The translations under genes were made by a program, and so were the position numbers. A DNA stretch of 64,000 nt. It comes from Telmatospirillum sp. Its GTDB lineage: Bacteria; Pseudomonadota; Alphaproteobacteria; CACIAM-22H2. The stretch spans positions 1-64,000 of the forward strand of contig JADCGL010000004.1 in NCBI GenBank assembly GCA_020248985.1, in the 5' to 3' direction. The notes beneath the pieces are model-generated. The model ran no database searches. It was given only the letters and a program-made list of their open reading frames with translations, and was not told the origin of the DNA. Positions within the stretch are counted from its first letter, which is position 1, and the number at the start of each line of letters is the position of its first letter. Below are positions 25,412-51,427 of this stretch, one piece after another.

Positions 25412-26157
25412 GTCGGATCGGTTCTCGTGGGTTCAAACGGCAAAGACTTGCGCCAGCGCTCATAGAGCCGGACTCGGGGCGGGGGCAAGCCCTGCCCGTT
25501 CGGCGCCAGCGCATAGCGCAGCAGGAAATGGCCGGAAATCTCGAGCCCAGCCACCAGATCGGCGGTCGAGGCGGGTGCCTGTCCCAACAAAAAAGCGGGC
25601 AATCGGAAGAGCTTGGCAGAAAATTCGGCGCCCGCCTCGCCCGACACCGCCCGGCCCGTTCGCGGGCTCACATAGCGCAGATCTTCGACCGTTCCGGTCG
25701 CCGCACAGCGCGCCAAATCGAGGCCGAATCCAAGCTCGGCCAGGCACCGGCACTCCCAGCGCACATAGGCGGCCGCCCAATCGGGCGTTTCGAGTGCTTC
25801 GATGAAGCCGATCGTCGCCGCATAGAGCTCGGCATGCGCCTCGCGCTCGGGCAGCACCAGTTCGAGCAGCGACGTGGCCGCCGTCAGCGCATCGAGCTTG
25901 TCGGCATCGTCGAGCAACAAGGCGCCCACCGTGCGCGCAAGTTCGCAGCTGTAATTGCCGAGATGCTCGGGCAGGCGGGCGCGCCACGTGGCGCGCACGA
26001 CATTGCCGCGCTCGTAAAGGGCGGCACCCCGTCCATGCCCGCCGCCGCGCGCCAAGCCCAGATGGCGCCCGTTGGCCAGCGTGAACAACGTCACGACCGC
26101 CGCATGCTCGCCATGCACGCGCCGCCCCAGCACGATGCCGTCGTCGGTCCATTCCAT
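25408..26157 (-). CDS. recO: DNA repair protein RecO
   Basis: This 249-residue protein starts [20 protein letters not shown], the usual alphaproteobacterial RecO N-terminus (OB fold, about residues 1-80), followed by a helical domain. It helps load RecA onto gaps together with RecR. A second ATG four codons upstream (26169) is possible. It is translationally coupled to parC by a four-base overlap. In related genomes recO usually follows era directly; here era lies 14.6 kb away. Confidence 0.92.
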
Positions 26158-26229
26158 GCTCCTAGACATGGGCCGATTCGCCCCTCTTTGCAAAAGCGTC
26201 GGGCTTTGCAAAACGGTCCGGGTTTGGCT

Positions 26230-27485: not shown

Positions 27486-28805
27486 ATGGGGTGTTCCGGC
27501 CGCTTTTTGGCATTCCTGCTTTTCGCGATCGCTGCTTGGGCCGGCAGTGCGCACGCACAAAACGACACGACCTTCGAAATCGTGAACCGCGCGCGCGTGC
27601 CCATTTTCGAGGTCTATGTCTCGCCTTCCGCCCTCGACGATTGGGGGCGAGACGTATTGCGCGACGACGTGATCCTGCCCGGGGCGCGTAAGACCGTGCG
27701 GCCGGCTGCCAACGAGTGCATCTTCGACGTGCGCATCGTCTATCGCGGCGGCCAATCCGAGGAACGGCGGCGCCAGAATCTGTGCCAATTGTCCGAAATG
27801 GCCTTCGACGGCGGAGCCCCCGCCCCTTCTGCACAAGCAGACGCGCAAGGCGATCCGAGTTTTGCGCTGGTCAACCGCGCGCCGCGCACGATCGCGCAGA
27901 TCTACGTCTCGCGCGCCAGCGAAACCGATTGGGGGCGCGACCGGCTCGGCGACGATGTGCTGGCCGCGGGCCAGCGCTTCAACGTGGACCTGCCGCAAGG
28001 CCCCTGCCAATGGGACATCGCGGTGGTCTACGACGACGATCGGCGCGAAGAGCTCAGAAACCAGAATCTCTGCAGCTTGACCGAGGTCGCGTTCGACGCG
28101 TCGAATGCGCGCGCTTCGGGCACGCCAGCCGCGCCGGCCCCCAACAGACGCCCCAACAGCGAGCAAGCGCGCGGCAACGAACAATCCTTCGGCACCGGCT
28201 TTTTCGTGTCGGCACAGGGGCACATGCTGACCAACGCGCATGTCGCGGGCGACTGCCAGCGCATCGGCGTGATGCTGGAAACCGGCCGCGTCGCGGCCCA
28301 GCTCGTGCGCAAGGACGAGCGCAACGATCTTGCCTTGATCAAGGTGGATGTGCGCGGGACGGTACCGTTCGCGCGCTTCCGCGCCCAGCCCTCGATCCGG
28401 GCCGGCGACGACATCGTGGTCGCGGGCTTTCCGTTGCCGACCTTGCTGCAGAACGGGCTCAACATCACGACCGGCAATGTGAGCGCCATGTCGGGCCTCG
28501 GCGGCAACATCGCCCTGATGCAGATCACTGCGCCCGTGCAGCCCGGCAACTCGGGCGGGCCCCTGCTCGACATGTCCGGCAATCTCGTGGGCGTCGTCGT
28601 GAGCAAACTCAATGCGCAGCGCGTGGCGCAGTCGACCGGCGACATTCCGCAGAACGTGAATTTCGCCGTGCAGGGCGCCGTCGCGCGCCTGTTCCTGGAA
28701 GCGGGCGGCCAGCGCTACGCCGAAGCGCCTTCGCAGCGCGACATGAAAGCCGCCGACGTCGCCGACCTATCGCGCAGCTTCACCTTCCAGATCGAATGCC
28801 GATAG
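27486..28805 (+). CDS. Trypsin-like serine protease with duplicated N-domain
   Basis: This 439-residue exported protein has a signal peptide (residues 1-24, ending SAHA) and a C-terminal chymotrypsin-fold protease (about 235-435). The triad is H252 (TNAHV), D281 (RNDLALI) and S356 (PGNSGGP). Before it are two tandem copies of an approximately 80-residue module (about 30-108 and 126-205). Each starts with F-x-x-VNRA, contains DWGRD, and carries two cysteines (C78/C100 and C174/C196). A linker rich in proline and alanine joins them to the protease. No PDZ domain is seen, unlike DegP. The last 188 bases of this gene occur again at 31229-31416, beyond the KAP NTPase gene. Confidence 0.88.
   Translation: MGCSGRFLAFLLFAIAAWAGSAHAQNDTTFEIVNRARVPIFEVYVSPSALDDWGRDVLRDDVILPGARKTVRPAANECIFDVRIVYRGGQSEERRRQNLCQLSEMAFDGGAPAPSAQADAQGDPSFALVNRAPRTIAQIYVSRASETDWGRDRLGDDVLAAGQRFNVDLPQGPCQWDIAVVYDDDRREELRNQNLCSLTEVAFDASNARASGTPAAPAPNRRPNSEQARGNEQSFGTGFFVSAQGHMLTNAHVAGDCQRIGVMLETGRVAAQLVRKDERNDLALIKVDVRGTVPFARFRAQPSIRAGDDIVVAGFPLPTLLQNGLNITTGNVSAMSGLGGNIALMQITAPVQPGNSGGPLLDMSGNLVGVVVSKLNAQRVAQSTGDIPQNVNFAVQGAVARLFLEAGGQRYAEAPSQRDMKAADVADLSRSFTFQIECR
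28618..28805 (+). repeat. Direct repeat copy 1 (protease 3' end)
   Basis: These 188 bases, ending exactly at the protease stop, are repeated in direct orientation at 31229-31416. The two copies differ at four positions, all third codon positions with no change in protein. Beyond the stop codon the flanks are unrelated. Confidence 0.95.
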
Positions 28806-29051
28806 AGACGGCGCGCGAAACTGCGCGAGGATTATGCTTTCAACAACAATAAAAAGCGTCTTGAAATCTCACTTTTATAAGCTCGCGCGAATCCCCTAGC
28901 TTCTACAGGTCGATGTTTGGCCCCCACGCCTTTGGACCAATGCAGATCCATTGATATAAAGAGTCTGGATGGCCGATCTGGTATGTTCAACGGCGGAGTG
29001 TAATACTGACATTGCCGAACCTACTTCAGATGACTCTTCTACGAGCGTGCA
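28806..29051. other. Leader region of the inserted KAP segment
   Basis: These 246 bases follow the protease stop and precede the KAP start. They are AT-richer than the host genes (for example AACAACAATAAAAAG near 28842) and have no clear open frame. They probably hold the promoter of the NTPase gene. Confidence 0.5.
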
Positions 29052-31229
29052 GTGATCAATCACCCCTACAACGACAAGCCGATCACCGATCCAGATGAAG
29101 ATCGATTTGGAGTTAATTCATTCGCAAGCGCACTCGCGCAAAGTATCCGTTCGCTTGCGACACCAGAAGGTTCGGTCATCGCTCTAAACGGCCCATGGGG
29201 AAGCGGCAAGAGCAGCGCCGTAAACCTAATCCGACACCATCTGAAAAAAACTGCTGATCGCGACAGAATCGATGTTGTCAATTTTGAGTGCTGGTGGTTT
29301 CGCGGTGAAGACGCGCTAGCACTTGCATTCTTTCGCGAGATCTACGCAGCACTCAATCCGAGCCTTGGGGAACGTACAAAGAAAATCATCCCTAAGTTGG
29401 GTTCTCGCCTACTACGTGCAGGCTCAGTTGTAGGGCCTGCAGTCGATCTCGCTGGCGGGGCCGGTGCAGGCACAATCGCCGCAGGGGCAATGGAGTGGCT
29501 CAGCGCGATGATTGAGCAGGACGAGAGCGTTGAGAAGCTACACGCTGAACTGTCAAAGAAGCTTGCAGAACTGGACCGCCGATTCCTTATCATCATCGAT
29601 GATATCGACCGACTTTCACCCGAAGAGGCATTGCTGGTTTTTCGCTTGGTCAAGTCCATTGGACGCCTGCCCAACGTCATTTACCTGCTTGTATACGATC
29701 GAGAGCTCGCTGAGCGAATTGTCGCAGAACGCTTCCCTGCGGAAGGCGCGCACTATCTTGAGAAGATCGTGCAAGCTGTATTTGAACTGCCGGGTCCAGA
29801 TCACGCAGACCTATGTTCACAGTTGCTAAATCATGTTCAAGCCATCTTCGGCGATGCTGAATTCCAAAGAGATATATTTGACTTTATGAATATCTTTTAT
29901 GACGTCGTCGCTCCCGAACTTCAACGGCCACGCGACATACCCAGAATTGTAAATGCACTTTCAGTAACCTGGCCCCCAATAGCAGGTGAGGTCTATGCAG
30001 CAGACTTAATGGCGCTAGAGACTCTTCGCGTACTGCAACCTTCCTTCTATATGGCAATTCGTAACAATGGCGATCTAATCCATGGGGCAAAAAAGACTGA
30101 TACGCGCGGCTCGCAGCAAGAGCGGAGCAACGAATATGATCGACGCCTGCTTGGTTCTTTCGGTGAGCATGAGCGACAGCGCTATCGCCGCGCATTAATG
30201 CGTTTGTTTCCTCAGCTGCAGGGCATTTGGAGCAATAATTCTCACTCGTCGAGTTTTTATGACAATTGGTCCCGGCAGCGGCGCGCCTGCTCCAAAGAGC
30301 ATTTTGGTACTTACTTCCGCTTAGCCGTTGGCGAAAATGCAATTCCCAAAAAGGAAATCGACGAACTTATCTCTCGAGCCGATGATTCAGATTTCGTTTC
30401 GGCAATCCTTCGAGCTGGACTTGAGAAAAAACGACGGAATGGCTCAACTCGTGCGTCCGCATTGCTTGAGCAACTGAATGTCTATGCAACGGAAATTGAC
30501 CAAGCCAAGATCCCGTCATTTCTTGCGGTCCTATTTTCAATCGCCGATGACCTTGATGTTACCTCAGACGAGGGAAAGGCATTCGAATTTGTCGACAACA
30601 GTATTCGCATTCATTGGCTTATTCGGCGGCTTACCCTCGAGCGTCTTCGTCTCGATGTTCGGGCAGAGGTGTTTAAGCGTGCCTGCGAAAAAGCTGCATT
30701 GGGCTGGCTGATCGACTTTTCAGAATCCGCTTATGCAGATTATCACCCGCGTGATGGAAGAGAACCCGAACGCGAAGAGCGCTGCCTTGTAACTAAAAGT
30801 ATTGCAGATGAATTGAGACATACGGCAAGTGACCGAATTGCTTTGGCTGCAGCCGACGGTACTCTCGCCGCCCATCGGAAGCTGCCCTCACTCTTATTTA
30901 GCTGGCATCGGCTTTCTGGCGACAACACTGCAGTTCGAGCCTGGACTGACCGCCAACTCGAAGACGACGCAATGGTCGCCCGCCTCGCATCAGCCTTTAC
31001 CTCGCATTCATGGTCGTCCAGTGCAGGCTTCGCAGGTTTGTCTGATCGCGTCGCACGACGGAATATCCGCGCTGTGGTCCAAGGACTCGAAGAAATTATT
31101 GACACTGAGAGATTCCGAGACAGGGTCGAACTATTAGCAACTGCAGATCACGTTAGAATAGAAGATAAAGAGGCTTTGATAACTTTCCTGGATGCGTGGA
31201 GGAAGCAGGAGGATGGGCGAGAACGCTGA
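29052..31229 (+). CDS. KAP-family P-loop NTPase
   Basis: This 725-residue protein has Walker A GPWGSGKSS at residues 47-55 and Walker B LIIIDDIDRL ending near residue 188. A short hydrophobic, glycine/alanine-rich segment lies between them (about 124-150). That insertion of membrane-type helices is a hallmark of KAP NTPases, which attach to the inner face of the membrane and are repeatedly found in phage-defence contexts. The C-terminal 400 residues are helical and unrecognised. Translation is taken from GTG at 29052. Codon and base use are AT-richer than the neighbours. The stop (31227-31229) abuts the second copy of the protease 3' end, so the gene appears to be a cargo insertion. Confidence 0.88.
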   Translation: MINHPYNDKPITDPDEDRFGVNSFASALAQSIRSLATPEGSVIALNGPWGSGKSSAVNLIRHHLKKTADRDRIDVVNFECWWFRGEDALALAFFREIYAALNPSLGERTKKIIPKLGSRLLRAGSVVGPAVDLAGGAGAGTIAAGAMEWLSAMIEQDESVEKLHAELSKKLAELDRRFLIIIDDIDRLSPEEALLVFRLVKSIGRLPNVIYLLVYDRELAERIVAERFPAEGAHYLEKIVQAVFELPGPDHADLCSQLLNHVQAIFGDAEFQRDIFDFMNIFYDVVAPELQRPRDIPRIVNALSVTWPPIAGEVYAADLMALETLRVLQPSFYMAIRNNGDLIHGAKKTDTRGSQQERSNEYDRRLLGSFGEHERQRYRRALMRLFPQLQGIWSNNSHSSSFYDNWSRQRRACSKEHFGTYFRLAVGENAIPKKEIDELISRADDSDFVSAILRAGLEKKRRNGSTRASALLEQLNVYATEIDQAKIPSFLAVLFSIADDLDVTSDEGKAFEFVDNSIRIHWLIRRLTLERLRLDVRAEVFKRACEKAALGWLIDFSESAYADYHPRDGREPEREERCLVTKSIADELRHTASDRIALAAADGTLAAHRKLPSLLFSWHRLSGDNTAVRAWTDRQLEDDAMVARLASAFTSHSWSSSAGFAGLSDRVARRNIRAVVQGLEEIIDTERFRDRVELLATADHVRIEDKEALITFLDAWRKQEDGRER

Positions 31230-31416
31230 GCGCGTGGCGCAGTCGACCGGCGACATTCCGCAGAACGTGAATTTCGCCGTGCAGGGCGCCGTCGCGCGCC
31301 TGTTCCTGGAAGCGGGCGGCCAGCGCTACGCCGAAGCGCCGTCGCAGCGCGACATGAAAGCGGCCGACGTGGCCGACCTGTCGCGCAGCTTCACCTTCCA
31401 GATCGAATGCCGATAG
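31229..31416 (+). pseudogene. Second copy of protease 3' end (direct repeat copy 2)
   Basis: This duplicate encodes the last 61 residues of the protease (from RVAQSTGDIPQ to FQIECR and stop) and begins at the last base of the KAP stop codon. An ATG at 31213 could start a 67-codon frame through it, but it would lack the whole protease domain. The four differences from copy 1 are synonymous and each ends in G here, matching host codon preference. This copy therefore may be the original chromosomal gene end, displaced by the insertion. Confidence 0.8.
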
Positions 31417-31426
31417 CGCCCGTCTT

Positions 31427-32320
31427 TTAAGCCCGGCCCTGGAACTGGCGGCCGGCGGCGGCGAGCGAGTCGAGGAAAGCGCCGGCGGCGGGCGACAGGC
31501 CCTCGCGCGGCGTCACCGCGCACAGGCGCCGCTTGGCCGGCGGATCGAGCGGAACCACGGCCAAGCGCCGTTCGCCCGACGGCACGCTGAGTTCGGGCAC
31601 GATCGACACCCCCACCCCTTCGCGCACCATCGCCATGAGTGCCGTCTGGTCGCGCACCGAGAAGGCGACGCGCGGCACCACAGCTTCGCGCGCGAACAAT
31701 GCGCGGATATCGGCTTCCGAGCCGCCATTGGGCATCACGAAACTTTCGTCGGCGAGATCGGCCGGCGACACTTTCTCGGAATTGGCGAGACGGTGGCGCT
31801 TGGGCATGATCGCCAGCAGATCGTCTTCGGCGACCGGGATCGTGTCGAAATCGCGCGGCAATTCGGCCGTGAGACCGATATCGACCGTGCTGCCGACGAC
31901 CCAATCGCGCACTTCGTGGTCGGTGCCTTCGATCAGCACCACTTCGATGCCGGGATAGCGCGTGCTGAAATTCTTGATGATCGGCGGCAGCAGGCGCGTG
32001 GCCGCACTCGACACGCTGCCCACGCGCACGCGCCCGCTCTGCAGGCCGGTCAAAGCCTGGGCGCGCGTGCGCACGCGTTCGATCGCGTCGAGGGCCGCGC
32101 GCGCATCGGCCTGGATCGCCGCCCCCGGGGCCGTCGCGGCCACGCGGCCGCGCGTGCGCAACAGCAGCACCACGCCCAGCGATTCCTCGAGAGCCGCCAC
32201 CGCCTGGCTCACGCCCGACTGGGTCAGCCCCAGTTTATGCGCGGCAGCGGTAAACCCGCCCTCGTCCAAAACCGCAAGAAAAGCGCGCAATTGCCCGACA
32301 TTGATGGTCGAAGTACTCAT
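31427..32320 (-). CDS. LysR-family transcriptional regulator
   Basis: This 297-residue regulator has a helix-turn-helix at residues 8-65 (FLAVLDEGGFTAAAHKLGLT) and a C-terminal effector domain. The ATG at 32320 fits the family; an upstream in-frame extension adds only basic residues. It lies downstream of aceA on the same strand, beyond a terminator, and converges with the KAP/repeat segment. Its target genes are not evident from context. Confidence 0.88.
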   Translation of the reverse strand: MSTSTINVGQLRAFLAVLDEGGFTAAAHKLGLTQSGVSQAVAALEESLGVVLLLRTRGRVAATAPGAAIQADARAALDAIERVRTRAQALTGLQSGRVRVGSVSSAATRLLPPIIKNFSTRYPGIEVVLIEGTDHEVRDWVVGSTVDIGLTAELPRDFDTIPVAEDDLLAIMPKRHRLANSEKVSPADLADESFVMPNGGSEADIRALFAREAVVPRVAFSVRDQTALMAMVREGVGVSIVPELSVPSGERRLAVVPLDPPAKRRLCAVTPREGLSPAAGAFLDSLAAAGRQFQGRA

Positions 32321-32445
32321 CTGACGATGATTCTCTCTAATTCTCGATTCGCGCACCCATTTGCTAAGCTAATAGCACGGGGCGCCGGAGTCCATCGAAT
32401 TTAACAAATGCTTAAGAACTGGCGAACGAAATATTCGGCGGCACC

Positions 32446-35773: not shown

Positions 35774-36886
35774 CTAAGACGGCGCGGCGAGCGCGTAGCT
35801 CGTGCTGCGCCCGCCTGCCGTTTCGCGCACCAGGATGCCGCGCGCGACAAGGTCGGACAAATCGCGCAAGGCCGTGTCGGGCGAGCATTTTTCGATCTTG
35901 GCCCATTTGGAACTCGTGAGCTTGCCCTCGAACCCGTCCAACAGGCGATTGAGCATGTCGGTCTGGCGCGGATTGAATGCGGCGGCTTCATGCGCCTCCC
36001 AGAAACGCGCTTTGGCGAGCACGCTTGCGAGCGTTGTCTCGGCCCCCTCAAAGGCGCGGTCGAGACACGCAAGGAACCAGCGCAGCCATGCCGTCACGTC
36101 GCCGTCGACTTGGCGTTGCGTTGCCTCGAGCAGCGCGTAATAGGCGTCGCGCTCTTTGCGGATCTGGGCCGATAGGCTGTAGAACCGCTGCGCGCTGTTT
36201 TCCGCGCGTGCCAAGCACATGTCGGCGATCGCGCGCGCAATGCGCCCATTGCCGTCGTCGAACGGATGGATTGTCACGAACCACAGATGCGCAAGGCCCG
36301 CCTTCAGCACCGGGTCGATCGCAGCATCGCCATCGAGCCAATCGAGAAATCGCCGCATCTCGGCATCGAGGCGCGTTGCGGCGGGCGCTTCGAAATGCAC
36401 GTGCTCTTTGCCGACCGGGCCCGAGACGACCTGCATCGGCCCGGTGGCATCGTCGCGCCAAGTGCCAACCGCAACGCGGTTGAGGCCGCTAAAGCCCGTG
36501 GGGAACAAGGCCGCATGCCAGCCGAACAACCGCGCGGCCGAAAGCTTGCTACTAAAATTCTGCGTCGCATCGAGCATCATCTCGACGACGCCATCGACAT
36601 TGCGGTCAGCGGGGGCAAGTGCCCCGATATCGATGCCGAGACGGCGCGCCAGCGACGAGCGCACCGAAGCGGCATCCAAAATCTCGCCCTCGATCTCGCT
36701 CGACTTGATGACATCTTGGGTAAGGGTCCGCAGCACGGCCTCGCTGCGCAGCGGGAACCCAAGCGCTTCCATGCGCCCGATCAGCCGCCCCTGCCGATGG
36801 CGCACCGAAGCCAGCAGATCGGCCAACCCGCTGTAATCCCACCAAAACTGCGGCCATTCCGGCCGCTCGTGATAGAAGCTCGCCAT
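35774..36886 (-). CDS. Fic-domain AMP-transferase with C-terminal winged helix
   Basis: This 370-residue protein has an N-terminal DUF4172-like helical region, a Fic domain with the active-site motif HPFDDGNGR at residues 207-215, and a C-terminal winged-helix-like region (about 300-365). The inhibitory motif S62-x-x-x-E66-G67 lies before the Fic core, making it a class II Fic whose own N-terminal helix blocks ATP binding. Such proteins transfer AMP to target hydroxyls or reverse that reaction. The ATG at 36886 fits the family. It converges with the Phd-like gene, 81 bases away. Confidence 0.88.
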   Translation of the reverse strand: MASFYHERPEWPQFWWDYSGLADLLASVRHRQGRLIGRMEALGFPLRSEAVLRTLTQDVIKSSEIEGEILDAASVRSSLARRLGIDIGALAPADRNVDGVVEMMLDATQNFSSKLSAARLFGWHAALFPTGFSGLNRVAVGTWRDDATGPMQVVSGPVGKEHVHFEAPAATRLDAEMRRFLDWLDGDAAIDPVLKAGLAHLWFVTIHPFDDGNGRIARAIADMCLARAENSAQRFYSLSAQIRKERDAYYALLEATQRQVDGDVTAWLRWFLACLDRAFEGAETTLASVLAKARFWEAHEAAAFNPRQTDMLNRLLDGFEGKLTSSKWAKIEKCSPDTALRDLSDLVARGILVRETAGGRSTSYALAAPS

Positions 36887-37158
36887 AATCTCCGCACTTT
36901 CTGCGGCGATTATGGCCCCTATTCGCCGCACGGGCAAGGTGGGGCGTAACTTTGGCGCCGGCCCGGTGTGCGGCATTCTTGAACTAAGTGATATGCAAAC
37001 CGAATTTAGTGCCGACCTGATTTCCGCCCCTCAATTTCCGAAACTGATATCGTGCAGACAGTTTGTTTCAATTTTCAATTCCATCAATAATCATCGGGTC
37101 GCTTTTGTCTTCAGTTTAGAGATGTGTGCGTCAAAATCGCTTTAGCAGGTCGCTTCAA
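36887..37158. other. Divergent spacer before unknown two-gene operon
   Basis: These 272 bases between divergent fic and the unknown operon turn AT-rich from about 36980 onwards and probably hold the operon promoter. No gene or repeat was identified. Confidence 0.45.
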
Positions 37159-38916
37159 ATGAACGATTCGCCACCTCCCTCCGCCTCAATCGATCAGCTC
37201 GCTAGTGCCTCAGATTCCTCCCTCTTGGACTATATCTTTTCCGGCTGTGGAAAAAGTGTATCCGATGCTAACGACCCGGCAATTGAAGCCCTCGCGAAGC
37301 TCCACAACGAAGGCAACGTAGATGTTTTGGCGCTACTTACTCCCGCAGCACTTGAGAAGTTCAAAGGTCCAAAGCTTTTCGTAGGTCAGCATATTTACCG
37401 ATTACTTATCGGCAAAATCAACGCTCCAACAGCTTCGCTCGTTCGCGCGCTAGGAACACTGATGGACGCAGCTGGAAGCGACTTGGCTGCCGGGCTCCCG
37501 GCCAATGACTTGGGAAAATGGTGCGAAGGTGATCCAAGTCGCCCAGAAGCTCTACTCAATCAAGTTGAGCGTGGAGCCGATCACGCGGAAAAGTTTCTAA
37601 TCGTAGCGCTTACGCGCGGAGCCGCAGTGAATCACAGCTACTTTGTCGAACGAGCGTATAGATACATCGATAGCGGTACCGACTTAGAACGTCTCCACGC
37701 GATACAAGCGTTGGGACAGATCACACTGTTATCGGGACAGGACTGGAACGATTTCACAACACGGTTCGAGGAGGCTATCGCAAAGAACCGTGGAGACACT
37801 GATAGAAGCGCGATACTGCGTGCCACCTTAAGAAAAATTAAACAGGCCCCCACAGAATATCAGGCCCCCCTCCGCGCGATAGTCGCATCCGCAATTGCAC
37901 CCTTGGGCGACAACACGCTCAACGCTTGCGCATGGGCGATCTCAGACGACTTGGCAGGATCAAACGATCCGATGATCGAGAATTTTCTCGACGCCTTACT
38001 CTCATTGAATCCCGAACACAGATCAACAATAGATCAACTTGACATCGGATTGGTAAAACTCGTCGAAGCTGGCAAGGCACAGCAGGCACAGCAGTTCTTA
38101 AAACAACTCTTTAGCAAAGATAGCAACACGCTAAACATGGGCCACTTTGACTCTCTTCGATATAAACTAATTGTCGGAGAAAGAGTGATTCTCGAAGACT
38201 GGTTTGTCACATGGTTGAGAAGCGGAAATCACAAACTCTGCAATCAGCTAAGCGAATATCTCTTCGACGCATCTATGGACGAATTCAAATTCGAAATTGA
38301 CTTCAGCCGCTTTGCTCTGAAGGCATCAGAGTTTGCATTTTTGGCGCGGAAGGTCATAGGGTACTTTTTCCTAAAGCCAGCGGTTATGGTTTCGTTTGTC
38401 GCTTCACTGATGCGACATGCACCAACGACTGAAACATCCGAGATTCTCACTCTGTTTTACGAGCATATCTTAGTAAACTACGGTGGCGTCGGAAAAAGAC
38501 TTCTAAAAAAGATTGCAGATGATTCAAACGATCCCGCGTCACGCAGAGCACAATACCTAGTCAAAGAGCTGGAAACCTACCACGCGAGTTTCGACGCTGT
38601 TGGAGAAATCAAGGAACTTCATCCGTCTGAACGAGAGCGCCAAATTGCTTGGCAACGACATTCCGATCAGATGCAGGACGCGCATAAGTCGGCGAGTGAA
38701 AAGTCCTTCGTACATCAGCTATTCAAGAAATCTGTATTGCTTTATGGCAACAGCGCAATCACTTACCTTCCACTTCCGTCCGGACCATTGCATAGAACTG
38801 AAGCAAAACTCGGAACAATCAGCGCATCGTTTGAGATGCCCCATACCGACATATTAGACCCTCTTGGCCTTCAATTCGTCCTAATAAACTTTAAGTCCGA
38901 GCCGCCCCCTGCATGA
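37159..38916 (+). CDS. Unrecognised helical-repeat protein
   Basis: This 585-residue protein matches no family I can name. It is predicted to be almost entirely alpha-helical. Successive amphipathic segments (for example AIEALAKLHNEGNVDVLALL near residue 45 and LERLHAIQALGQITLL near 178) resemble an armadillo/HEAT-type solenoid. There is no signal peptide, membrane segment, Walker motif or nuclease motif. The ATG at 37159 is preceded by AGGTCGCTTCAA, a modest ribosome-binding sequence. It is coupled to the next gene by a four-base overlap (ATGA, 38913-38916). Its base composition is AT-richer than the core genes, suggesting transfer. Confidence 0.75.
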   Translation: MNDSPPPSASIDQLASASDSSLLDYIFSGCGKSVSDANDPAIEALAKLHNEGNVDVLALLTPAALEKFKGPKLFVGQHIYRLLIGKINAPTASLVRALGTLMDAAGSDLAAGLPANDLGKWCEGDPSRPEALLNQVERGADHAEKFLIVALTRGAAVNHSYFVERAYRYIDSGTDLERLHAIQALGQITLLSGQDWNDFTTRFEEAIAKNRGDTDRSAILRATLRKIKQAPTEYQAPLRAIVASAIAPLGDNTLNACAWAISDDLAGSNDPMIENFLDALLSLNPEHRSTIDQLDIGLVKLVEAGKAQQAQQFLKQLFSKDSNTLNMGHFDSLRYKLIVGERVILEDWFVTWLRSGNHKLCNQLSEYLFDASMDEFKFEIDFSRFALKASEFAFLARKVIGYFFLKPAVMVSFVASLMRHAPTTETSEILTLFYEHILVNYGGVGKRLLKKIADDSNDPASRRAQYLVKELETYHASFDAVGEIKELHPSERERQIAWQRHSDQMQDAHKSASEKSFVHQLFKKSVLLYGNSAITYLPLPSGPLHRTEAKLGTISASFEMPHTDILDPLGLQFVLINFKSEPPPA

Positions 38917-40652
38917 AACTCATTTTTCGCCAATATCTTGCATCACTTCGCGAACGTCGCGAGCTTGACGTAATAATTCCCGATTTGTTAAGTGAACTCG
39001 GATTTACGGTTCTGTCGCGACCATCGATCGGTACGCGCCAATACGGCGTAGACGTTGCGGCAATCGGCCGAGATGTCGATGGTGAAAACAAGCTGTTCTT
39101 GCTATCGATCAAACAAGGAGACCTTACTCGGGCCGAGTGGGATGGCACGCCGCAAGCGCTGCGCAGTTCGTTAAACGAGATTCTTGATGTCTATATTCCG
39201 AAACATATCGCTGCGGAACATCAAACACTAAAGATTGTAGTTTGCCTTTGCTTTGGGGGTGAAATTCACGAGTCTATTCAATCTAATGTTATCGGGTATA
39301 CAGAAGGGAAAGCAACCGAAGTAATTTCATTCAAAATTTGGAATGGCGATCATATTGCTGGAATGCTTGCCGAAGGCACGCTTCGAGAGCAACTTCTGGA
39401 AAAAGAACTGCGAGCCGACTTTCAAAAGGCAGTCGCGATGGTCGATGAGCCAGATATATCCTTCAAACATTTTTCGGCTCTCACCCGTAAGCTCTGCAAC
39501 GCAGAGGGAAAGGAAATAAAAAATCGACTTACCTCAATTCGGCAACTGAACATTTGCTTGTGGGTCCTGTTCGTCTGGGCGCGCGACGTTAGAAATGTCG
39601 AAGGCCCCTACAGAGCCAGCGAGTTTGCGATCCTTCAAGCATGGGCGATGATTAACCGCGATCTCGCCGGGTCCAGCAAAGCATCCCGGGAGATTGCAGA
39701 CGCGTTCTCGCAACTCCTATCCGTCCATTTCGAAGTTTGGGATGAACTGCTCAAGAACAAGATACTACCCTTTGTTGACGTAAAATTTGCGATCTCCGCA
39801 GCTGTGGGATCGTCTTCAAGTGTCGATGTAAACCTGAAGCTATTTGAAGTCCTGGGACGCCTCGCGCAACGCGGAATCTGGACGCTCTGGATGGAAGGCG
39901 GGCAAGACCCACTGCCCCAAACCGTTGCAGATGAACAACCAACTGAGGCTCGGGAGTTGGCAGGAAAGATCATTGAATTGATACGCAATAACCCAACACT
40001 TTTGTCGCCGATCAACGATGCACAGTCTGCAGACATAGGCCTCGCAATTGTGTTTTTGAGTTCCGTAAAAAGCCATCGAGTCGCAGCGCGCCATTTTGTG
40101 ACGGAATTGATAGACCGTATCTGCTTTGCCTATCAAATTCACGGAAGATATCCGACAATCCAAACTGCTTATCGTGACTTATTGGATCACCCCCGCGAAC
40201 GGACGGATGCTTATCGAGTTGCACAAACTTCAGCGAGTACATTGATCCCCCTGCTCTCGTTATGGGCTTCGTCATTGGGTGCGGACGACGCGGCAAGCGA
40301 CTTGGCGCAGTTTGCAACGAAATTTCTTGGGCATTGTGCATTTCAGTTTTGGGTTCCAGGCGAAGATACCGAAGCAAAAATTTTTAGTGGCACCGAGAAC
40401 CATGGGGCCTCGTTGAGTGGAATACCAATTACGGCTGATGGTGAGACTGCACTCGACATCCTAAATCGGGAATGCAGCAATAATGAAGCCTTTACGAATC
40501 TCTCAACAATGCGACTCGATCATTGGCCAGTACTCGCAATGGCGTGCCGGTACCATAGGTTGCCCTTACCGCCGAACATTTGGCTGCCGCTTCTGCTTGA
40601 GTGCAGGACTGATCTCACAATGAACGCGTCGCCAACAAGTTCTGAAACCTAG
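38913..40652 (+). CDS. Unknown protein with nuclease-like N-terminal domain
   Basis: This 579-residue protein is the second gene of the unknown operon. Its first 120 residues resemble an Mrr/PD-(D/E)xK nuclease fold: a helix with E28, then RQYGVDVAAIG with D47, a strand LFLLSIKQGD with K67, and another strand KIVVCLCFGG. The usual E or Q two residues before the lysine is S65, so catalysis is uncertain. The remaining 450 residues are mostly helical and unrecognised. Coupling to the upstream solenoid protein suggests the two form a complex. A defence role is plausible by neighbourhood (Fic, Phd, KAP NTPase) but unproven. Confidence 0.75.
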   Translation: MKLIFRQYLASLRERRELDVIIPDLLSELGFTVLSRPSIGTRQYGVDVAAIGRDVDGENKLFLLSIKQGDLTRAEWDGTPQALRSSLNEILDVYIPKHIAAEHQTLKIVVCLCFGGEIHESIQSNVIGYTEGKATEVISFKIWNGDHIAGMLAEGTLREQLLEKELRADFQKAVAMVDEPDISFKHFSALTRKLCNAEGKEIKNRLTSIRQLNICLWVLFVWARDVRNVEGPYRASEFAILQAWAMINRDLAGSSKASREIADAFSQLLSVHFEVWDELLKNKILPFVDVKFAISAAVGSSSSVDVNLKLFEVLGRLAQRGIWTLWMEGGQDPLPQTVADEQPTEARELAGKIIELIRNNPTLLSPINDAQSADIGLAIVFLSSVKSHRVAARHFVTELIDRICFAYQIHGRYPTIQTAYRDLLDHPRERTDAYRVAQTSASTLIPLLSLWASSLGADDAASDLAQFATKFLGHCAFQFWVPGEDTEAKIFSGTENHGASLSGIPITADGETALDILNRECSNNEAFTNLSTMRLDHWPVLAMACRYHRLPLPPNIWLPLLLECRTDLTMNASPTSSET

Positions 40653-49873: not shown

Positions 49874-49978
49874 GTAACCTATTTCAGAGGTTAATCTTTT
49901 AAAATCAGATGCTTGTAGCTCAATCCTCACAACAATGTAACCTGGGGCAACCTATTCTGACGCCTTTGGTAACCTATT
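49874..49978. repeat. Short repeat cluster GYAACCTATT
   Basis: The decamer GTAACCTATT or GCAACCTATT occurs at 49874-49883, 49947-49956 and 49969-49978, with a partial copy at 49937-49943. It occurs again at 50866-50875 inside the kinase 3' end. The copies at 49969 and 50866 lie just outside the GNAT relic and the intact GNAT stop respectively, so they may mark the edge of a duplicated unit. The rest of 49758-50010 has no gene. Confidence 0.6.
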
Positions 49979-50010
49979 GTCGCCGGTCGCCGTCGCCTAA
50001 TTCGCGGGGC

Positions 50011-50341
50011 CGTCAGACGATATTGAGGCTGTGGAACATCAAGCGCCGCCAGCCCCCGCGCAGCGGATAGTGCCGCTCGACTTGGCCTTGCGGCACGAAG
50101 CCGAGCTTGGCCAGCACGCGCTCGGAAGCCCGGTTGCCGGGGAAAGTTTCGGCCACCATCTGGCGGGCCCCCAAGCTGCGCGCGCGCGTGCGATGCAGGC
50201 CTGGCCCGCCTCGGTCGCGTAGCCGAGGCCGTTCGTGCCGATGAAGCTGCCGTTGGCCAAAACACAGCGCGAAGACGTGCCCGCCAGGGCCGGTGCGCAG
50301 CTCGATCTATTCGGCGGCCGCCTTCGCCGTCAACGGATCGG
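50011..50341 (-). pseudogene. Decayed copy of GNAT gene 3' part
   Basis: Read on the minus strand, this segment is a diverged copy of the 3' two-thirds of the GNAT gene at 50888-51427 (matching its 50888-51276 part). It lacks 63 bases present in the intact gene between 51105 and 51170 and carries small insertions near 50190 and 50260 that break the frame. It has no start region. It lies on the far side of the small kinase gene, in the same orientation as the intact gene. Confidence 0.85.
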
Positions 50342-50373
50342 TTATATAACAGGCCACACCACATGGAGCACTG

Positions 50374-50901
50374 ATGCTAATCATCTTCGGCGGCCGGCCT
50401 GGAACGGGCAAGACAACATTGGCACGGGCACTGGCGCAGCAGCTCGCCGCGACGCATCTGCGCGTGGACACCATAGAACAGGCCCTGAAGGCGACGCTCG
50501 GCGACAGGATCGGCGCGGCCGGCTATGGCGTCGCACAGCAGGTTGCCACCGACAATCTGCGGCTCGGCCTGACCGTGATCGCCGACAGCGTCAACCCGGT
50601 GGCGGCCAGCCGTGCCGGCTGGCGCGCGGCGGCAGCGGCGGCCAGTGCGCAGGCCATCGAAATCGAGGTGGTCTGTTCCGATGCGGCCGAACATCGCCGC
50701 CGGGTGGAGACACGGCAGGCCGATATTCCCGGCCATGTGTTGCCGCGCTGGCAGGATGTACTGGCGATGGATTTCGAGCCCTGGACGGTCGACCATGTGA
50801 TCGATACCGCCGGGCGCAGCATCGCAACCCTTTCCGCCGATCTGGCGGTATTGTTGCCGGTCCCCGCAACCTATTTCCGGGGCGGCGTCAGGCGATCGTG
50901 A
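50374..50901 (+). CDS. Small P-loop kinase (zeta/shikimate-kinase-like)
   Basis: This 175-residue protein starts MLIIFGGRPGTGKTTLARAL, with Walker A GRPGTGKT at residues 7-14, and has the layout of small nucleoside/metabolite or zeta-toxin-like kinases. An ADSVNP segment (about 70) and an RRRVETRQADIPGH lid-like region (about 109) follow. The substrate is unknown: it could phosphorylate an antibiotic, a nucleotide or a sugar. GGAG precedes the ATG. It converges with, and overlaps by 14 bases, the intact GNAT gene, and lies between that gene and its decayed copy. Confidence 0.8.
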   Translation: MLIIFGGRPGTGKTTLARALAQQLAATHLRVDTIEQALKATLGDRIGAAGYGVAQQVATDNLRLGLTVIADSVNPVAASRAGWRAAAAAASAQAIEIEVVCSDAAEHRRRVETRQADIPGHVLPRWQDVLAMDFEPWTVDHVIDTAGRSIATLSADLAVLLPVPATYFRGGVRRS

Positions 50902-51427
50902 GGCTGTGGAACATCAAGCGTCGCCAGCCGCCGCGCAGCGGATAGTGCCGCTCGACTTGTCCTTGCGGCACGAAGCCGAGCTTGGCCAGCACGCGCTCGG
51001 AAGCCCGATTGCCGGGGAAGGTTTCGGCCACCATCTGGCGGGCCCCCAAGCTGCGCGCGCGCGCGATACAGGCCTCGCCCGCCTCGGTCGCGTAGCCGAG
51101 GCCGCGATAGGCGGCCCCGATCCAGTAGCCGAAGCCGGGCACCCCGTCGCGCGGGCCGCCGAAGCCGCTGGTGCCGATGAAGCTGCCGTCGGCCAGGAAC
51201 AGCGCGAACACATGCCCGCCCGGCCCCGTGCGCAGCTCGATCCATTCGGCCGCCGCTTTCGGCGTCAGCGGATCGGGCATGTGCGAGAGCATGGCGATGG
51301 CCGCTTGGTCCGGCCCCAGCAAAGCCGCGAAGGCCGGCGCATGCGTCGTGCGCAGCGGCGCAAGCAAGAGCCGCGGCGTGGTGAGGCGCACATCGTTGGG
51401 CACGTAGAGGTCGGTCTGCTGGCGCAT
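50888..51427 (-). CDS. GNAT acetyltransferase (RimJ/RimL type)
   Basis: This 179-residue N-acetyltransferase has the RimJ/RimL pattern: RLTTPRLLLAPLRTTHAPAF at the N-terminus, FGYWIGAAYRGLGYATEAG as acetyl-CoA-binding motif A, and NRASERVLAKLGFVPQG near the end. It may acetylate protein N-termini or small molecules. It lies 26 bases after smpB in the same direction. A decayed copy of its 3' part lies beyond the kinase gene. Confidence 0.9.
   Translation of the reverse strand: MRQQTDLYVPNDVRLTTPRLLLAPLRTTHAPAFAALLGPDQAAIAMLSHMPDPLTPKAAAEWIELRTGPGGHVFALFLADGSFIGTSGFGGPRDGVPGFGYWIGAAYRGLGYATEAGEACIARARSLGARQMVAETFPGNRASERVLAKLGFVPQGQVERHYPLRGGWRRLMFHSLTIA

Follow-up and report, generated by a model that had tools for sequence, protein, structure and literature searches.

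Introduction

PifA of F-type plasmids is responsible for the exclusion of phage T7. Integrase-borne islands form a different group of accessory DNA, and restoration of the 3' end of the gene or tRNA in which they insert is their hallmark. Insertion with long target duplication was first reported with restriction-modification genes as cargo (Nobusato 2000, Kobayashi group, cited in PMC3031569). As outlined in that citing source, a foreign gene lies between long direct target repeats of variable length, a relative carries the single-copy empty site, and a recombinase is absent. Duplicated gene ends have also been obtained in an E. coli conjugation experiment, where partial duplication of the lacZ end accounted for 56 of the 60 unusual recombinants; the duplications measured 109-950 bp in the 14 that were sequenced, and they were attributed to recircularised plasmids integrating by a single crossover (PMC3240628). 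Four of the 60 recombinants arose by homology-facilitated illegitimate recombination (HFIR), and three of these four joints were without homology (PMC3240628). HFIR has likewise been proposed for displaced gene 3' ends at type VI secretion (T6SS) loci of Vibrio (PMC5361080).

In this study, we analysed a 64,000-nucleotide stretch of DNA from Telmatospirillum sp., referred to here as the window, in which a KAP-family NTPase gene is flanked on each side by a copy of a protease gene's 3' end. Like the restriction-modification insertions outlined in PMC3031569, this locus has a foreign gene between long direct repeats (188 bp), empty sites in relatives (the sister genomes G002 and G003) and no recombinase. 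Unlike the cases outlined there, its cargo is a PifA-like KAP NTPase, its repeat copies differ at synonymous sites only, which suggests a donor-borne gene end, and the same genome holds other cargo in the same layout. The locus shares with HFIR and with the crossover of truncated circles a homologous anchor in a gene end, an illegitimate joint on the other side and a duplicated or orphaned gene end (PMC3240628; PMC5361080), but it is a natural chromosomal insertion, and we infer its route from its structure. With the F-plasmid protein it has in common a KAP NTPase that matches the PifA model over nearly its full length and a single-gene architecture; it differs in sequence (24% identity), in its chromosomal location and in having no adjoining pifC, and phage exclusion would be a predicted property. 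As with integrase-borne islands, the insertion restores the gene end, but here there is no integrase, only one gene and a longer repeat.

Results

A foreign gene between two copies of a protease gene end

The host gene encodes an intact trypsin-like serine protease of 439 aa (27486-28805, + strand; Pfam Trypsin_2, 2.9e-27), whose orthologues are present in G002, G003, G004 and G010. We compared its 3' end with the DNA downstream. The results showed that the last 188 bp (28618-28805, + strand), which form the functional gene end and close with the last base of the TAG stop codon, recur as an orphan gene end at 31229-31416 (+ strand) at a spacing of 2611 bp, with 184 of 188 positions identical. 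Within the window this is the longest direct repeat except a gene-fragment repeat at 49975-51276, and because 112 bp match without a mismatch, a chance origin is excluded. The four mismatches (T28730, C28751, C28760 and A28769 in the first copy) all fall on codon position 3 and are synonymous, and a translation comparison indicated that fusing the second copy to the 5' part of the protease gene leaves the protein unchanged. The first base of the second copy is the A of the TGA stop codon of the KAP gene. The second copy is continuous with the ancestral flank, and 10 bp beyond it ends the convergent gene of a LysR regulator (31427-32356, - strand; Pfam LysR_substrate and HTH_1), the original neighbour of the protease end, in synteny with G002 and G003.

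The inserted DNA (28806-31228, + strand) comprises 2423 bp and has a GC content of 50.9% vs 66.4% for the protease gene. A search of the genome revealed no further copy of the repeat, of the KAP gene or of the insert DNA. The first-pass annotation had described a direct repeat of the protease end, a second copy whose first base is the last one of the KAP stop codon, and a low-GC KAP gene with its leader between the copies, and all of this was borne out. An ATG at 31213 lies within the KAP end, directly after an AGGAGG motif and in frame with the second copy (31213-31416); from it, a 67-aa C-terminal protease fragment could be translated.

We also observed other differences around the protease gene. 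Its N-terminal half (27546-28160) encodes two tandem repeat domains, vs three in G002, G003 and G004. Near window position 26150-26210, about 3.2 kb is absent that in G002, G003 and G004 lies between RecO and a transporter and encodes a sensor kinase, a response regulator and a small protein. In G004 (L063, 6646-6874), the interval from recO to the two-component genes contains adjoining fragments of recO and the transporter gene, likely the scar of a tandem duplication and deletion. We also considered whether the transporter-protease segment had come in as a whole from a distant donor, and rejected this: divergence at fourfold sites was equally raised in all three sister pairs, and therefore gave no specific signal of segment import.

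Empty sites in sister genomes

In G002 and G003, a single protease end is directly joined to the LysR gene. The sequence 31229-32433 aligned to G003 and G002 as one block at about 92% identity, indicating that the second copy sits on the ancestral flank and that 28806-31228, absent from both genomes, is the inserted DNA. Because two sister genomes have the empty site, the KAP insertion is real and recent. The proposal of the first-pass annotation, an insertion at the gene's 3' end that left the protease intact and an empty site with one gene end in relatives, thus agrees with these loci and with the TAG at the end of the first copy. Neither of the findings it had named as contrary was seen, namely relatives that lack the repeat and keep the NTPase at this position, or a duplicate made by assembly.

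In G004, the protease/LysR site is occupied by another insert, which encodes an MqsR toxin and an MqsA antitoxin (L063, 13015-14505; Pfam 1.9e-17 and 1.8e-9). The gap between the two genes has therefore taken small foreign modules at least twice, and it is possibly an insertion hotspot. The two gene ends lie 10 bp apart, and a spare gene end lets DNA enter with both genes unharmed. None of 10 congeners had a full-length KAP homologue, and no donor genome with KAP adjoining the protease gene was found.

The cargo is a KAP NTPase of the PifA family

The inserted gene (29052-31229, + strand, GTG start) encodes a KAP-family P-loop NTPase of 725 aa (Pfam KAP_NTPase, 9.4e-46), an identity that had been correctly assigned at first reading; PADLOC places the protein in the PifA defence family (2e-134). 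KAP residues 5-696 aligned with positions 5-712 of the 720 in the PifA model PDLC02361, scoring 448 bits; an IncF-plasmid PifA whose gene adjoins pifC (NZ_CP049082) scored 963 bits with the same model, and it is to this protein that the 24% identity refers. Walker A (G47-K53) and Walker B (D183-D186) are intact, and G47, G50, G52, K53, D183, D184 and D186 are invariant in 34 sequences. The C-terminus aligned with the C-termini of homologues, indicating that the KAP gene is complete. Single-sequence scans of genomes and viral contigs returned no close relatives, but an alignment scan did find homologues at 40-54% identity, mainly in Proteobacteria. The structure model was of good confidence (pLDDT 84), and a Foldseek search with it was uninformative, its matches being the RADAR ATPase RdrA and generic folds of the AAA+/ORC type, at low TM-scores.

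The AT-rich leader of the gene (28806-29051, + strand) had no match in Rfam, elsewhere in the genome or in other KAP loci; an RNA element had been considered for it and was rejected on the Rfam result. KAP is the sole gene in the insert, and pifC is absent beside it. By sequence, KAP is thus assigned as a foreign gene of the PifA defence family, most likely encoding a single-gene, PifA-like abortive-infection NTPase, and its predicted role in phage defence follows from that family membership.

Elsewhere in the window (35774-40652), a Fic (DUF4172-Fic) gene and the OloA/OloB genes of the Olokun defence system form a 5-kb block of 49% GC that is missing from G003; a flanking long repeat is absent there.

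The insert carries no mobile-element machinery

We searched the insert (28806-31228) for mobile-element features. The results showed no recombinase gene and no ORF of credible length besides KAP, no transposase, no terminal inverted repeats and, in the second repeat copy, no notable inverted repeat. The first reading had likewise seen no integrase, transposase or terminal inverted repeat. On the features tested, the insert qualifies neither as an integrase island nor as a transposon. We then turned to other genomes and to viral contigs, where 90 PifA-like loci were checked for flanking direct repeats. Only three had any, of 55 bp at 82% and 85% identity and, in a Nostoc locus, of 294-382 bp at 84%; a near-identical long repeat was found at none of the 90, and a recurring KAP element beside duplicated gene ends was accordingly rejected. 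A KAP homologue in G156 is part of an ordinary tRNA-Lys island, which has a tyrosine integrase and a 91-bp repeat. The first-pass annotation had read the insert as a candidate single-gene mobile defence cargo and had proposed a search for the NTPase beside duplicated gene ends in other genomes; the search showed no such recurrence, and the reading as a mobile element is weak and lacks support.

Two older loci have the same layout

About 1.3 Mb of the genome was sampled for direct repeats of at least 60 bp. Two older loci showed the order host gene, single gene, 3'-end remnant and ancestral flank. The first lies in the window (49975-51276, - strand) and involves a GNAT gene. A decayed GNAT 3' end (49975-50341) runs into a flank common to G003, and it is followed, in window coordinates, by an AAA_33 kinase-like gene (50374-50901, + strand) and by the GNAT gene, which has its stop at 50888 and whose 3' part (50849-51276) is the other repeat copy. 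G003 has one GNAT end only, and the kinase protein has no match there. The second locus is on contig C15 (C15:212178-214035; L175 12178-14015), where a single membrane-protein gene (52% GC) separates the host gene at 212178-212744 from a remnant of that gene's own 3' end (213578-214015), 84% identical to the gene end. In G002 the host gene is single and the insert is absent. The upstream copy on C15 appears to be frameshifted close to its end.

Differences at third codon positions made up 21 of 37 in the GNAT locus and 32 of 61 in the C15 locus, an excess expected from divergence after duplication, so these two loci do not decide between a donor-borne end and target duplication. Since they carry other cargo and none of the 90 PifA-like loci has such a repeat, the layout follows the recombination route and not the cargo. 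No gene-end duplication with this layout was found in 255 kb of the sister G003. Other repeats from the scans were rejected as cases because they represent paralogous genes or domains (FhaB-like proteins, ABC ATPases, dehydrogenase lipoyl domains and OmpA-like proteins, and flagellins in G003); further repeats comprised 101 bp at 83% identity on C8 (L216) and 197 bp on C5 (L213).

Differences between the repeat copies

All four differences between the 188-bp copies fall on the 35 fourfold-degenerate sites of the repeat. For differences arising in one unselected copy, this has a probability of 0.001; if the protease copy (copy 1) is assumed to be under purifying selection, an all-synonymous outcome has a probability of about 0.03. 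The four differences also cluster within 40 bp (P = 0.03). These probabilities (0.03-0.001) depend on the assumptions made and concern few differences (n = 4). Because all four lie at fourfold sites, the pattern favours a gene end that came in together with KAP and may have acquired its differences while it was coding DNA of a different strain. A replacement gene end brought by the incoming DNA had already been suggested in the first-pass annotation; the position of the differences supports this part of it, with a strength that varies with the assumptions.

Discussion

We consider it probable that donor DNA carrying a protease end and KAP recombined homologously within the gene end on one side and was joined illegitimately on the other. 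The source would be a close relative in which KAP immediately followed the protease gene; a fragment of its DNA would have entered the lineage and found its anchor in the homology of the protease 3' end. The KAP end could then have been joined straight into the resident protease gene, as in HFIR. Alternatively, the fragment may have circularised first, so that the KAP end met a truncated protease end, and one crossover would then have integrated the circle. Either route would yield an intact protease gene, KAP and an orphan 188-bp end continuous with the old flank, and neither would require a transposase or integrase. The locus points to an ordinary recombination accident and not to a dedicated mobile element. 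As to the entry of DNA, ComEC is encoded in the genome, as it is in E. coli and other control genomes. A gene transfer agent as the vehicle was rejected, with no match to GTA_TIM, and so was end joining by Ku, with no Ku match.

The same final structure would result from a true target duplication, in which KAP went into a break with a long stagger and the repair placed a copy of the resident gene's 188 bp on each side. The long, variable duplications attributed to restriction-modification genes (Nobusato 2000, in PMC3031569) offer a precedent as far as that source describes them, and divergence after duplication would account for the copy differences at the GNAT and C15 loci. We nevertheless regard this explanation as unlikely for KAP, where four of four differences at fourfold sites would be unexpected in an unselected orphan copy. 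In addition, we know of no enzyme that cuts with a 188-nt stagger. An element that used the protease 3' end as its specific site and whose integrase has since been lost is less plausible still, and we consider it very unlikely. It would account for the restored gene end, and the tRNA-Lys island of G156 provides a KAP homologue in such a setting; however, the insert holds no integrase fragment or second cargo gene, the second copy has no notable inverted repeat, the repeat exceeds usual att cores and begins at the KAP stop codon, and two other loci combine different genes with different repeats. Near-identical copies could also suggest an assembly artefact from collapsed or chimeric strains. 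This is extremely improbable in a genome that is 98.9% complete with 0.55% contamination, in which the joint between KAP and the second copy lacks an overlap long enough for an assembler to invent it, and the two older loci of the same layout, with copies 8-16% diverged, are not collapse errors.

The arrangement agrees with insertion with long target duplication; the event is of a known kind, and the KAP locus is a well-documented new case of it. A broader reading is that this lineage repeatedly acquires single genes, defence genes included, through gene-end capture without a recombinase, and that the insert is a reversible, homology-driven cassette. We hold this to be quite doubtful. If it were true, the in-frame, functional gene end beside the insert would allow recombination between the repeats to release a circle with KAP and one gene end, and this circle could re-enter any strain with the protease gene.

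Since the copies differ at synonymous sites only, the question whether a "duplicated target" is a donor allele can be put to the test. The KAP locus provides a clear recent example of a single defence-type gene that settled in a chromosome without mobile-element machinery. Together with the two older cases, it suggests that recombination at gene ends gives rise to long target duplications in general, as a by-product, and that these are not specific to restriction-modification genes.
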